Positions 2,079-7,169 of a DNA stretch of 64,000 nucleotides are shown in pieces. How positions within the stretch are numbered: position 1 is the stretch's first letter; each line of letters starts with the position of its first letter. The notes below the pieces were generated by a model that was given only the letters and a program-made list of their open reading frames with translations, was not told the DNA's origin and searched no databases. The DNA comes from Tepidicaulis marinus (GTDB taxonomy: Bacteria > Pseudomonadota > Alphaproteobacteria > Parvibaculales > Parvibaculaceae). Both the position numbers and the translations under genes were made by a program. The stretch is from contig NZ_BBIO01000003.1 in NCBI RefSeq assembly GCF_000739695.1, forward strand, positions 62,001-126,000, in the 5' to 3' direction.

Positions 2079-3385
2079 GCGGGCAACATACCGATGAGCT
2101 TGCCATCCTCAAGCCCTTTGATCGTGAGCGGCAGGATTTCGCCTTCCCTTGCCAAAGCCGTCGCAGCGGCATCGGGCACGACCTGGAAGAAGTGCGGCGT
2201 GCGCCCGAGGCCGGGCTTTTCCATCAGCACGTTCTGCGTGGTGCCGAGTGCGCTTTGCAGGGCGCTTGTCAGGCGCGCTTCGCCTTTTTCGCGCAGGCGC
2301 CGGGCCCGTTCCTTGATGAGCGCGCCGTCCACCTGCGGCATGCGCGCCGCAGGGGTGCCGGGGCGGGCGGAGTAAGGAAAGACATGCAGGAAGGTCAGCT
2401 CGCACTCGTCGACAAGGCGGAGGGAGTTCTCGAACATCGCCTCGCTCTCGGTCGGAAAGCCCGCAATGATGTCGGCGCCGAAGGTCATTTCCGGGCGCAG
2501 GCGCTTGGCCTCCTTGCAAAAGGCGATGGCATCCTCGCGCGAATGGCGCCGCTTCATCCGCTTCAAGGTCAGATTGTCCCCGGCCTGGAGCGAGAGGTGA
2601 AGATGCGGCATGAAGCGTTCTTCTTCCGCGATGAGCCGCATCAGCGGTTCGTCCACTTCGATGGAATCGATGGAGGAAAGACGCAGGCGCTCCAGCTCGG
2701 GCACCAGCTTGAGGATGCGGGCGCAGAGATTGCCGAGCGAAGGCGTGCCCGGCAGGTCCGTGCCATAGGAGGTGATGTCGACGCCGGTAATGACCACCTC
2801 GCGGTAGCCATTGGCCACCAGCTTGCGGATCTGGGAGACGACTTCGCCCGCCGGCACCGAGCGCGAATTGCCCCGCCCGTAGGGAATGATGCAGAAGGTG
2901 CAGCGGTGGTCGCAGCCATTTTGCACCTGAACGAAGGCGCGGGCGCGCCCCTCGATGCCTTCCACGAAATGGCTTGCCGTCTCGCTGACCGACATGATGT
3001 CGTTGACGCGCACTTTCTCATTCTGGCCGAGGGAAAGGCGGGTGAAGCTTTCACCCTTCAGCTTTTCCTCATTGCCGATCACCGCGTCCACCTCCGGCAT
3101 GGCGGCGAATTCGTCCGGGTCGATCTGCGCGGCGCAACCCGTCACGACGATGCGGGCGAGCGGGTTTTCGCGGCGCGCCTTGCGGATCGCCTGGCGGGCC
3201 TGGCGCACGGCCTCGTTCGTCACCGCGCAAGTGTTGACGATGATGGCGTTTTCGAGCCCAGCTTTTTCGGCATGGCCGCGCATCACCTCGGATTCGTATG
3301 TATTGAGGCGGCAGCCGAAGGTGAGGATTTCGGCAGGCTTTACCTCCCGTTCCTCATCGCCGCCCTTGTGAAGATGCGCGCTCAT
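2075..3385 (-). CDS. mtaB: tRNA t6A37 methylthiotransferase MtaB
   Basis: MtaB is a radical-SAM enzyme that converts t6A at position 37 of ANN-decoding tRNAs to ms2t6A. The 436-aa product has the UPF0004 domain with cysteines near 25, 53 and 84 that hold the auxiliary iron-sulfur cluster. It also has the radical-SAM CxxxCxxC motif (CDHRCTFC, cysteines near 158, 162 and 165) and a C-terminal region compatible with a TRAM-like domain. The TFGCRLN opening is typical of MtaB rather than MiaB. It overlaps dapF upstream and ftsY downstream by 4 bp each. The first 16 residues are poorly conserved in type, so a slightly later start is possible. Confidence 0.95.
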   Translation of the reverse strand: MSAHLHKGGDEEREVKPAEILTFGCRLNTYESEVMRGHAEKAGLENAIIVNTCAVTNEAVRQARQAIRKARRENPLARIVVTGCAAQIDPDEFAAMPEVDAVIGNEEKLKGESFTRLSLGQNEKVRVNDIMSVSETASHFVEGIEGRARAFVQVQNGCDHRCTFCIIPYGRGNSRSVPAGEVVSQIRKLVANGYREVVITGVDITSYGTDLPGTPSLGNLCARILKLVPELERLRLSSIDSIEVDEPLMRLIAEEERFMPHLHLSLQAGDNLTLKRMKRRHSREDAIAFCKEAKRLRPEMTFGADIIAGFPTESEAMFENSLRLVDECELTFLHVFPYSARPGTPAARMPQVDGALIKERARRLREKGEARLTSALQSALGTTQNVLMEKPGLGRTPHFFQVVPDAAATALAREGEILPLTIKGLEDGKLIGMLPA

Positions 3386-4251
3386 GAGGCGCTCCTTCCG
3401 GCATAAGCTTCCCAGTCGAGCTCGCCTTTATAGTCGAGCTCGGCGGGGCCGGTCATATAGACGTGATTGTCCGCCTCGCGCCATTCGATGGTGAGCTCGC
3501 CGCCGGGCAGTGCGACTTGCACGATGCGCTCGGTCAGGCGCTTGCGGATCGCGGCGACGCCCGCCGCGCAGGCAGCGGTGCCGCAGGCCCGTGTCAGGCC
3601 TGCGCCGCGCTCCCAAACGCGCAAGGTGATGTGGGTGCGGCTGTCGACCTGCGCGAGCGAGATATTGGCGCGCTCGGGAAAGATCGGGTGATGTTCGAGC
3701 ATCGGTCCGATCTGCGCGAGGTTATAGGCGTTCACATCCTGCACGAAAAAGATCGCGTGGGGATTGCCCATATTCACGGCGGCGGGCGTATGCAGGATCG
3801 GCGCGTCGATGGGGCCGATCTGCAATTCGATGCCGCGCGTGTCGCGGATTTCTTCTGAAAGCGGGATCTGGTGCCATTCAAGGCGCGGCTCGCCCATATC
3901 GACGGTGATAAGTCCGTCCCCGCCCGGCATGGCGCGCAAGGTGCCCGCCACGGTTTCGACCGCCACTTCTTCCTTGCCGCTTTCCTGCATCAGAAGATCG
4001 CCGATGCAGCGCGTGGCGTTGCCGCAGGCTTCCACCCGCTCGCCGTCATTGTTCCAAATATCCATGAAGGCATCGCCGCCATCCCGCGCCGGTTCGATGA
4101 CGATGAACTGGTCGCAGCCGATGCCGTTTTCGCGGCTCGATATGGCGGCGACGATTTCCGGCGTCAGCTCCAGCGCGCGCGCACGGGCATCCAGCACGAC
4201 GAAGTCGTTGCCGAGGCCGTTCATCTTCAAATAGGGCACGCGGGTTGCCAT
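3382..4251 (-). CDS. dapF: diaminopimelate epimerase
   Basis: DapF interconverts LL- and meso-diaminopimelate in the lysine and peptidoglycan precursor pathway, using two cysteines and no cofactor. The 289-aa product has the opening KMNGLGNDFVV, the first catalytic cysteine in ACGNATRC (near residue 76) and the second in RACGTAAC (near residue 223), as in the family. Length is normal. It is the first gene of a minus-strand operon with mtaB and ftsY, an order common in Alphaproteobacteria. The upstream region is shared with the divergent CinA-like gene and contains a 13-bp tandem repeat. Confidence 0.97.
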   Translation of the reverse strand: MATRVPYLKMNGLGNDFVVLDARARALELTPEIVAAISSRENGIGCDQFIVIEPARDGGDAFMDIWNNDGERVEACGNATRCIGDLLMQESGKEEVAVETVAGTLRAMPGGDGLITVDMGEPRLEWHQIPLSEEIRDTRGIELQIGPIDAPILHTPAAVNMGNPHAIFFVQDVNAYNLAQIGPMLEHHPIFPERANISLAQVDSRTHITLRVWERGAGLTRACGTAACAAGVAAIRKRLTERIVQVALPGGELTIEWREADNHVYMTGPAELDYKGELDWEAYAGRSAS

Positions 4252-4427: not shown

Positions 4428-4913
4428 ATGGATGAGTTAAGAGAGCTGGCGGGCCGGGCAGGCATGCTCTTGAAAGCGCGCGGAGAGCGCCTCGCGGTCA
4501 CCGAATCCACCTGCGGGGGGCTGCTTTCCGCCGCTTTCGTCGCGCAGCCCGGCGCTTCCGGCTTTTATCTCGGCGGCGCGGTCATTTATACGCGCGAGGC
4601 GGGACGAGCTCTTTACCAGATAGAGGCGGCGGCGCTGAAAGGTAAAAGCCCGCTCACGGAAGATTATATCGCTGCCCTTGCCGAAGGTTTCCGCGGCCAG
4701 ATGGGGGCGGACTGGGCGCTCGGGGAAATGGGCGCGGCCGGGCCCGATCCCTCGCCTTACGGGCCCCCTGCCGGCACCGCCGCCATCGCCCTTGCGGGCC
4801 CCAGCCCCTCTGCCCGCATCGTTTCGACCGGGGTCGCCACGCGGGCTGAGAACATGCGCCTTTTCGCCAAAGCCGCGCTGGAGCTGCTGATCGAGGGGCT
4901 GGAAGGGGCTTAG
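4428..4913 (+). CDS. CinA C-terminal-domain family protein
   Basis: The 161-aa product matches the stand-alone CinA C-terminal (PncC-like) domain, whose characterised members deamidate nicotinamide mononucleotide. It reads VTESTCGG near residues 24-31, where canonical PncC has ESCTGG. In the segment reading YTREAGRA, the family's usual lysine (YSNEAK in E. coli PncC as I recall it) is absent. The GAAGPDPSPYGPPAGT segment fits the conserved glycine-rich turn. The ATG at 4428 has an AAGGGAAAAGGA Shine-Dalgarno region. Longer upstream reading would translate the tandem repeat and is unlikely. Amidase activity is uncertain because of the substitutions. Confidence 0.75.
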   Translation: MDELRELAGRAGMLLKARGERLAVTESTCGGLLSAAFVAQPGASGFYLGGAVIYTREAGRALYQIEAAALKGKSPLTEDYIAALAEGFRGQMGADWALGEMGAAGPDPSPYGPPAGTAAIALAGPSPSARIVSTGVATRAENMRLFAKAALELLIEGLEGA

Positions 4914-4928
4914 GGTACCGCTACTGTC

Positions 4929-5017
4929 GTCACCCTCGCGCTTGACGCGTGGGTCCATGAGGAGGCTGCGATCTGTGGAGACGCTGTTTGGACCCCGGCT
5001 CGCAGGCCGGGGTGACG
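4929..5017. repeat. inverted pair of the GTCACCC/GGGTCCA intergenic repeat
   Basis: Two copies of a ~29-bp element occur here in opposite orientation: 4929-4957 (GTCACCC...GGGTCCA, diverged) and 4989-5017 (TGGACCCC...GGGGTGACG). The same element recurs as pairs at 27698-27798 and 33001-33100, and as a variant at 11860. It fills the gap between the CinA-like gene and the convergent flagellar-rod-like gene. Confidence 0.75.
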
Positions 5018-5043
5018 GGCGGTGATAGTGGAAAGGCCCTGCC

Positions 5044-5346
5044 TCAGGAAAGAATATCAATCACCTCCCGCTCCGTCTCGGAGACGGCGGCGAAGACCTT
5101 GGCATTGGCCTTATAGGCGTGTTCGGCCTGGAGAAGGTCGAGCGTGCCGGTGAGGAGTGTGTCCTCCGGCGGCCGGGAGAGGGGCTGTGTGCCCGTCAGC
5201 GGGCCCGCCTGAAGCGTCTCGAGGGGCGTCTCGGAGGTATTTTCGGGCCGGGAGACGGGGGCGCGGGCAATCGTCTCCGCTGCTTTTGTGAAAGCGGCGG
5301 CGGCGGATTTAAGCCCTGTCAGGGCGTGGGAAAGCGCGCCGATCAT
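5044..5346 (-). CDS. small flagellar-rod-like protein (FlgC/FlgG-type termini)
   Basis: This 100-aa protein looks like the two ends of a flagellar rod or hook protein joined by a short linker. The N terminus (ALSHALTGLKSAAAAFTKAAETIA) resembles the rod-protein N-terminal helix that normally carries the ANDLANANT-type motif. The C terminus (LLQAEHAYKANAKVFAAVSE) resembles the flagellar rod C-terminal domain (AYQANAKV). The middle is only about 45 residues, rich in Pro and Thr. No other flagellar gene is nearby. It could be an accessory rod or export component, or a coiled-coil protein of unrelated role. The similarity is by eye. Confidence 0.55.
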   Translation of the reverse strand: MIGALSHALTGLKSAAAAFTKAAETIARAPVSRPENTSETPLETLQAGPLTGTQPLSRPPEDTLLTGTLDLLQAEHAYKANAKVFAAVSETEREVIDILS

Positions 5347-5633: not shown

Positions 5634-7169
5634 ATGTTCGAGAATCTTCAGGACCGGCTTTCCGGCGTCTTCGACAAACTGACCGGGCGCGGCGCGCTGT
5701 CGGAAAAGGATGTCGATGAGGCGCTGCGCGAGGTGCGCCGGGCGCTGCTCGAAGCCGATGTGGCGCTGCCTGTCGCCCGCGCTTTCGTGGAGAAAGTGCG
5801 CACGCGCGCGGTGGGCCATGAAGTCCTGAAATCCGTGACGCCCGGCCAGCAGGTCGTCAAGATCGTCCATGACGCGCTGGTCGATACGCTGGGCGCGGAG
5901 GCGGCGGAAATTTCGCTCAATGCCCCGGCCCCCGTCGCCATCATGATGGTGGGCCTGCAGGGCTCGGGTAAGACGACCTCGACCGCGAAGATCGCCAAGC
6001 GGCTGATGAAACGGGAAAAGCGCAAGGTCCTGATGGCCTCGCTCGACACCCGCCGCCCGGCTGCCCAGGAACAGCTCAAAGTGCTGGGCGAGCAGAACGA
6101 TATTCCCACCCTTGCCATTGTCGAAGGCCAGGAGCCTGTGGCGATCGCAAGGCGCGCGATGGAAGCGGGCCGTCTTGGCGGCTATGACGTGGTCTTGCTC
6201 GACAGCGCCGGCCGGCTGCATGTCGATGAAGCGCTGATGGCCGAGATCACCCAAGTGCGCGATCTTGCCCATCCCCATGAAACGCTGCTCGTGGCCGACA
6301 GCTTGACCGGTCAGGACGCGGTGAACGTCGCCGAGCAGTTCCAGTCCCGCATCGGGCTGACCGGTATCGTGCTGACGCGGACGGATGGTGACGGGCGCGG
6401 CGGCGCTGCCCTTTCCATGCGCCATGTCACGGGCGTGCCGATCAAACTTCTGGGCACGGGCGAGAAGATCGACGAGCTGGAGGATTTCGATCCCCGCCGC
6501 ATCGCCGGGCGCATTCTCGGCCAGGGCGATGTCGTCAGCCTGGTGGAAAAAGCCGCCGAGACCATCGACGCGGAAAAAGCCGAGCGCATGGCGCGCAAGA
6601 TGAAGAAGGGTCAGTTCGACCTCGACGATCTTGCCGAGCAATTGCAGCAGATGGGCAAGATGGGCGGCATGGCGGGGGTGCTTGGCATGTTGCCGGGCAT
6701 GGGCAAGATCAAGAAGCAGCTCGGCCAAGCCCAGCTCGATGACAGCATTTTCAAACGTCAGGCGGCGATCATCTCCTCCATGACGAAACAGGAACGGCGC
6801 AACCCCAAAGTGCTGAATGCCAGCCGCAAGAAGCGCGTGGCCGCCGGCTCGGGCACGTCGGTGCCGGAGATCAACCGCCTGCTCAAGATGCACCGCCAGA
6901 TGGCGGACATGATGAAGCAGATGGGCAAGAAGGGCATGAAAGGCCTTTTCGGCGGCATGGGTGGCGGTATGGGCGGCCTGATGGGCGGCGGCATGCCCGA
7001 GATGCCGAGCGATCCGAAAGAGGCCGAACGGCTCTTGCAGCAAATGGGCGGGAGCGGCGGTTTGCCGCCCGGCCTCGGGTCGAACTCGATCGCCGGCGGC
7101 GGCCTGCCGGGGCTTGGGGGTCCGGGCGGTCTTCCCGGTCTGCCTTCAGGGCGCGGCAAAAAGAAGTGA
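5634..7169 (+). CDS. ffh: signal recognition particle protein Ffh
   Basis: Ffh is the SRP54 GTPase that, with 4.5S RNA, recognises signal sequences at the ribosome and hands them to FtsY. The 511-aa product begins MFENLQDRLSGVFDKL, the usual Ffh start, which fixes the ATG at 5634. It has the P-loop GLQGSGKT near 107-114, DTRRPAA, DSAGR and TRTDGDGRGG in the G domain. A methionine-rich M domain follows from about residue 300, with a Gly/Met/Pro-rich low-complexity tail of about 70 residues. The family's usual TK(L/M)DG motif reads TRTDG here. It heads the ffh-rpsP-rimM-trmD-rplS block. Confidence 0.97.
   Translation: MFENLQDRLSGVFDKLTGRGALSEKDVDEALREVRRALLEADVALPVARAFVEKVRTRAVGHEVLKSVTPGQQVVKIVHDALVDTLGAEAAEISLNAPAPVAIMMVGLQGSGKTTSTAKIAKRLMKREKRKVLMASLDTRRPAAQEQLKVLGEQNDIPTLAIVEGQEPVAIARRAMEAGRLGGYDVVLLDSAGRLHVDEALMAEITQVRDLAHPHETLLVADSLTGQDAVNVAEQFQSRIGLTGIVLTRTDGDGRGGAALSMRHVTGVPIKLLGTGEKIDELEDFDPRRIAGRILGQGDVVSLVEKAAETIDAEKAERMARKMKKGQFDLDDLAEQLQQMGKMGGMAGVLGMLPGMGKIKKQLGQAQLDDSIFKRQAAIISSMTKQERRNPKVLNASRKKRVAAGSGTSVPEINRLLKMHRQMADMMKQMGKKGMKGLFGGMGGGMGGLMGGGMPEMPSDPKEAERLLQQMGGSGGLPPGLGSNSIAGGGLPGLGGPGGLPGLPSGRGKKK

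Follow-up and report, generated by a model that had tools for sequence, protein, structure and literature searches.

A small FlgC-related protein with end helices and no body, encoded apart from the flagellar genes of Tepidicaulis marinus: a candidate minor axial subunit or adaptor

Introduction

Short axial proteins made of two helices are familiar from the injectisome, where they form the inner rod and the needle (SctI/YscI). In the flagellum, the systems closest to the protein described below are the rod protein FlgC and FliE, the connector between the rod and the MS ring. In the available text of PMC11673145, FlgC consists of a D0 domain and a Dc body that stiffens the rod, axial assembly requires contacts between D0 domains, and FliE has a D0 without a Dc, its D0 sitting on FliP/FliR.

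The DNA analysed here, called the window, is a stretch of 64,000 nucleotides of Tepidicaulis marinus (contig NZ_BBIO01000003.1, positions 62,001 to 126,000). An earlier note, made from the letters alone, had pointed to a 100-residue product with sequence resembling both terminal helices of axial flagellar proteins but almost none of the body, and had proposed an assembly cap, adaptor or regulator that pairs with rod subunits; the follow-up partly supports that interpretation. Like FlgC (model TIGR01395), its nearest axial protein, the mini protein has an N- and a C-terminal helix. In contrast with FlgC it has no Dc body, its short relatives measure 72–121 residues, its own profile matches are sub-cut-off and its gene lies outside the flgB-flgC-fliE cluster. 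It resembles FliE in size (106 and 110 residues in the window genome) and in having D0 without Dc, whereas the sequences show no meaningful match and FliE genes, assigned by eye, are present in both flagellar clusters of that genome. The injectisome proteins differ in that the association found for the mini protein is with flagellar genes; the YscI model is matched by one of 44 members of the mini set, at 0.014, a single weak match. A fourth system enters as a neighbour and not as a homologue: at six out-of-class loci the mini gene adjoins a gene of the family (PF12118) to which Campylobacter CJM1_0395 belongs.

Neither the fold nor the superfamily of these proteins is new. No description of rod paralogues that lack the body and are spread over a class turned up in the open-licence literature, as far as titles and the opening lines of abstracts go. 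Flagellar parts lists derive from few model species and from flagellar operons. The conserved set of rod-like minis and FlgC-length forms, present in 56 of 387 genomes of the class and also outside it, would supply a component that can be overlooked when such lists start from operons, and the minis would offer a natural experiment on the capacities of an isolated D0 in axial assembly and export.

A constrained gene between cinA and ffh

The mini gene occupies positions 5044..5346 of the reverse strand, with its ATG at 5346 and its stop ending at 5044, and encodes 100 residues read here as a probable D0-only FlgC paralogue. It converges with a gene for a stand-alone CinA domain (4428..4913, forward strand; PF02464 at 1e-32) and diverges from ffh (SRP54; 5634..7169, forward strand). 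These two genes mark a conserved locus, whose next gene is dapF (3382..4251, reverse strand); an ftsY-like gene and dapF lie beyond the immediate neighbours in the window. In the loci of the family that were read, the mini gene adjoins the cinA-like gene and, wherever the other flank is visible, has ffh on that side, or, in one genome (G004), sits between ffh and dapF. Gene names in these context loci were mostly assigned by eye. The named record closest to the window gene belongs to the Rhodobiaceae metagenome-assembled genome UBA4490 (L005).

One other genome of the same genus, G001, turned up in the searches made, and its orthologue is 92% identical. The two mini genes differ by 17 synonymous and 8 non-synonymous changes (dS 0.253, dN 0.039, dN/dS 0.155), values close to those of the cinA-like neighbour in the same pair (dS 0.253, dN 0.034, dN/dS 0.136). 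Residues 34–49 hold six of the eight replacements and the sole indel, a deletion of four residues; the predicted helices hold the other two, at residues 17 and 94. The open reading frame of the earlier note is therefore a genuine gene under purifying selection, as measured on one species pair. A chance open frame is ruled out by the dN/dS, the synteny and the existence of relatives. Elsewhere in the window, near ftsY, the reverse strand at 541-954 encodes a protein of 137 residues, rich in Lys and Ala, which resembles histone H1 when judged by eye.

Two helices and a linker in place of the body

An AlphaFold model computed with two sequences predicts helices at residues 2–28 and 61–99 with unstructured residues between them; a mean pLDDT of 62 and a pTM of 0.27 make the model good as a secondary-structure prediction only. 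The N-terminal helix (5263..5343, reverse strand; block pLDDT 65–75) aligns, by way of relatives, with the D0 helix at the N terminus of rod proteins. The C-terminal helix (5050..5166, reverse strand) contains the motif YKANAKV and resembles Flg_bbr_C over residues 70–96. Between them, residues 29–60 (5167..5262, reverse strand) form a variable linker without modelled secondary structure, with pLDDT below 50 for residues 32–55. This linker takes the position that the Dc body has in FlgC, and the near-absence of a body that the earlier note had read from the sequence holds: about 32 residues stand in its place, unstructured in the low-confidence model. Mean pairwise identity follows the same division, at 0.30 for residues 1–29, 0.07 for residues 30–60 and 0.29 for residues 61–100, and the pattern of the two end helices is preserved throughout the class and outside it.

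Similarity to axial proteins

Taken alone, the window protein stays below every curated cut-off. Its best Pfam match is Flg_bbr_C (PF06429), with 14.5 of the required 23 bits (E 0.026), which is also the best match of its four closest relatives (14.7, 15.7, 17.4 and 21.8 of 23 bits, all sub-cut-off). Flg_bb_rod (PF00460) gives no match to it at E<=10, at a setting whose filters drop most weak matches. Among NCBIfam models FlgE appears at E 0.31, and the FlgC model TIGR01395, with its cut-off of 102.1 bits, is not among the matches. A pairwise search of its own genome reaches FlgC at an insignificant E of 0.4 (25% identity); the reverse search, with the genome's FlgC as query against the window, returns nothing at 1e-3.

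The relatives carry the signal. Searched one by one at E<=0.1, 37 of 44 match Flg_bbr_C (best 1e-11) and eight match Flg_bb_rod (best 5.6e-7); the resemblance of the N-terminal helix rests on these relatives, since the window protein itself has no Pfam match there. The FlgC model is matched at E<=0.01 by 20 of the 44 aligned members, a level at which the window protein has no NCBIfam match. A profile of five sequences (A1), with which 387 genomes of the class were searched for additional proteins, already places FlgC first among solved structures, at 0.007. The alignment of 44 class proteins (A2), from which L079 of G373 was excluded because no N-terminal part was located in frame with the rest, gives FlgC at 1.3e-11. 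Two members of A2 are FlgC-like proteins of 132–134 residues and might bias it towards FlgC; with these removed, the 42 shorter members (A5; 72–121 residues) still rank FlgC first (7.3e-10), followed by FlgE (2.5e-9) and FlgG (2.8e-8). The 14 sequences of the window's own family (A4) give a weak result, in which a designed helical protein leads (0.026) and FlgC takes third place (0.042).

Within the window genome, A4 and A5 both rank its own FlgC first among the flagellar-region proteins of a set of 1497 called from the loci (3.4e-6 and 2.6e-13), ahead of FlgE, FlgG and FlgK, and FliE has no meaningful match to either profile (E 0.37 and 3.5). As judged from these profiles, the mini family shares homology with the D0 helices at both ends of axial proteins, FlgC being the nearest of them. 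The profile search proposed as a check of the claimed resemblance thus gives significant matches for the family and a sub-cut-off match for the window protein by itself.

Long forms and repeated shrinkage

The minis belong to a wider set of FlgC-like proteins that fall below the FlgC cut-off and coexist with canonical FlgC, the long forms scoring about 40–86 bits on the FlgC model. At three loci, long and short forms occupy the same position. Beside an EamA-like transporter gene and ilvC (named by eye), G382, G319 and G250 encode forms of 136–137 residues, measured from the start that matches, and the form in G168 has 78; in BLASTP the G319 and G168 proteins are 43% identical across 44 residues of the C-terminal part (1e-10) and 38% identical across an N-terminal stretch of 55 with a gap (1e-6). 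At a second shared locus, G426, G301 and G226 have forms of 127 residues within longer open frames and G365 has 105 residues. At a third, between genes resembling the ChvG kinase and hprK-ptsH by eye, the lengths are 130 residues in G136 and 78 in G135.

A FastTree phylogeny of 73 sequences and 93 columns, each filled in more than 70% of sequences, joins short forms to their syntenic long forms (support 0.91 for G168 and 0.93 for G365) and separates canonical FlgC and FlgB from all paralogues and minis (0.95), many of the remaining nodes being weak. We infer that the Dc body was lost repeatedly from FlgC paralogues. On the sequence evidence, the minis belong to a diverse set of FlgC paralogues encoded apart from canonical FlgC, in which the D0 helices are kept and the Dc is gone from the short members.

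Presence in flagellated genomes

The 56 genomes of the class with a mini protein or FlgC-length relative are defined by a profile match at E<=1e-12, a threshold picked after the match list had been seen so as to exclude canonical axial proteins. The count mixes short and FlgC-length forms and leaves out weaker true-looking ones (for example in G178, G411, G132 and G214); none of its matches coincides with a FlgC above its cut-off. FlhA is found in 51 of the 56, compared with 227 of all 387 genomes (Fisher p 1.1e-8, uncorrected for kinship), and canonical FlgC exceeds its cut-off in 68 of 70 genomes tested. Three of the five FlhA-less genomes (G314, G100 and G433) would count as flagellum-free by FlhA alone, wrongly, as they carry flagellar gene clusters; FliF was searched for and not found in these three or in G214, and its lack in the three is taken to reflect missing contigs.

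The other two, G365 and G426, have no FlhA, FliF or canonical FlgC and still hold an open mini or long gene, in assemblies 96–97% complete; G226 and G301 of the same family (f98) are flagellated. The expectation that orthologues occur only in flagellated species is thus borne out for 54 of 56 genomes and broken by these two, and a wide presence in species without flagella was not seen in the class sample.

The window genome itself has two flagellar gene sets, on contigs C28/C42 and C39, with two FlhA and two canonical FlgC proteins (147 and 150 bits on the FlgC model). Its flgB-flgC-fliE clusters lie on C42 and C39, and the mini gene lies elsewhere, between the cinA-like gene and ffh, which confirms its isolation from flagellar loci. 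With two canonical FlgC already present, a relocated canonical FlgC is ruled out; a misplaced FliE is ruled out likewise by the FliE-like gene, identified by eye, in both clusters.

Distribution and loss within the family

A profile search finds the mini gene in 14 of 40 genomes of the window's family: in both genomes of genus g1, all seven of g3, both of g4, three of 27 in g5 and neither of the two in g2. FlhA is present in 38 of the 40, and in 26 of the 27 of g5. The g5 genomes without the mini gene (24, of which eight are less than 90% complete) retain FlhA in 23 cases. At 20 mini-less cinA loci of g5, the distance from the aligned end of cinA to ffh is 189–190 nt in ten, as against 768 in the window; six have a gap of 505–904 nt, and in four ffh was not seen. 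The 14 minis of the family have no match at E<=0.05 in these 20 loci. The short gaps and the missing matches indicate that the gene has gone without recognisable trace from at least ten g5 loci. From this distribution, the mini protein is accessory and dispensable for possession of a flagellum.

Neighbouring genes

Flagellar genes are generally missing from the surroundings. Forty-six flagellar-cluster proteins of the window genome, named by eye, were compared by tblastn with the whole window and matched just the ftsY-like gene (by flhF) and positions 52-56 kb (by fliI), the latter taken for ATP synthase. A first set of 40 context loci with up to 6 kb per side contained one canonical FlgC (L080), which was set aside; in the remaining 39, matches of the same queries were limited to the mini gene and to sequence of SRP-type GTPases. 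Among 12 loci of a second set, those of G191 and G271 have a long paralogue downstream of fliO-fliP, at a distance of about 1.5 kb; in the remaining ten, flagellar queries gave self-matches or nothing. A search of 299 genomes of the phylum led to 28 further loci (L132-L159), ten of which are short forms from outside the class, some of them inside longer open frames; three such loci with 6 kb flanks (G647, G558 and G593) had no flagellar match.

Certain lineages have a recurrent partner. In all six loci of families f179 and f183 (L141, L142, L148, L149, L150 and L154), a gene related to SprA (PF12118-like) directly follows the mini gene on the same strand, two of the calls resting on Pfam and four on similarity to those two. 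This neighbour is absent from four of the ten out-of-class loci read and was not found in 50 other context loci. Proteins like the minis of f179, f183 and f182 presumably occur in gamma- and betaproteobacteria. In g5, a small protein of 73–89 residues is encoded upstream of the mini gene in all three mini-bearing genomes (L008:1788-2048, L121:304-522 and L085:6318-6584); it has no match at E<=0.05 in the 20 mini-less g5 loci and none at the window's locus (L093). In four genomes of family f71, a protein of 131–135 residues is encoded immediately next to the mini gene (L057:6311-6703, L061:6319-6711, L062:6316-6708 and L064:5581-5985). Two of the three g5 partners and two of the four f71 partners were scanned, and none of these four has a Pfam match.

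Proposed role and alternatives

The reading we prefer, at a probability of roughly 0.4, is that the mini protein is exported and serves at the base of the rod, as a minor axial subunit or an adaptor. The flagellar type III export gate would still recognise it as an early substrate of the rod type, and this gate would be its way out of the cytoplasm. Its two helices would then pack, in few copies, into the D0 core of the proximal rod, in the FliE-FlgB-FlgC zone. Lacking a Dc, it could not add to the stiff shaft, which suggests a connecting role as for the D0 of FliE; whether as a minor adaptor, as a plug or as a subunit that sets timing, it would be an accessory outside the core and might tune assembly or export. 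This reading draws on the homology, the shrinkage series, the link to flagellated genomes, the long paralogues near fliO-fliP in G191 and G271, the dN/dS, the helical model and the published background on D0. A hint of export comes from the SprA-related neighbours, as the Campylobacter SprA-related protein CJM1_0395 is absent from the supernatants of a flgG mutant in the available text of PMC5223770. Counted against it are the sub-cut-off matches, the insignificant pairwise search, the weak A4 result and the pTM of 0.27, together with G365 and G426, the loss in g5, the lack of flagellar neighbours and the four of ten out-of-class loci that lack SprA.

Foremost among the alternatives, though on balance unlikely, is a cytoplasmic or secretion-coupled regulator that mimics the ends of rod subunits, competes for sites on the export gate or chaperones, reports or times the completion of the rod and is removed by export. 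A mimic of this kind would be expected to keep helical ends and dispense with a structural body, and genes outside flagellar clusters with an accessory distribution also suit it; there is reportedly a precedent, a specialised flagellin paralogue that relieves translational co-repression by being secreted. The results fit this regulator or a structural part, and no regulatory partner, target or phenotype is known for it. Distinctly unlikely is an export companion or marker that helps a non-structural partner through the flagellar export channel. The adjacent partner genes in f179 and f183, g5 and f71 speak for it, as does the flagellum dependence of the Campylobacter protein in supernatants (available text of PMC5223770); however, the window's locus has no partner, being flanked by the cinA-like gene and ffh, the absence of Pfam matches in the scanned small partners leaves nothing that connects them, and SprA-related genes are confined to the loci named above among those searched.

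An old FlgC paralogue that has gained a role independent of the flagellum would account for the isolation of the gene and for the open frames in G365 and G426, but the strong association with flagellated genomes makes this improbable, and the two exceptions may themselves reflect recent loss or missing contigs, for which G314, G100 and G433 provide a precedent. More improbable still is a decaying, functionless relic of an FlgC duplication. Repeated shrinkage, fast change in the linker and frequent loss are what a relic would show; against this stand a dN/dS of the order of the neighbouring gene's in the one species pair and an end-helix pattern that persists far beyond the family. Returning to the axial subunit or adaptor, a wider version of it, rather unlikely as a whole, would have proteobacterial flagella draw on a hitherto unrecorded class of accessory D0-only subunits that arise by recurrent stripping of Dc from a FlgC paralogue, stay at the export gate or go through it, act as a removable wedge or checkpoint between gate and rod and, in some lineages, escort partner proteins out.

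Additional observations

Sigma-54 sites were found in none of 42 upstream stretches (1.4 expected) and CtrA-like sites in two (0.3 expected), counts too few for an argument from co-expression. At five loci from distant families (L067, L059, L186, L079 and L090), a mini or long form lies beside genes that resemble chvG/chvI, hprK or ptsH by eye. In G018 the mini gene is present as tandem copies (L084:4360-4629 and 5001-5261), the second of which is the more diverged.
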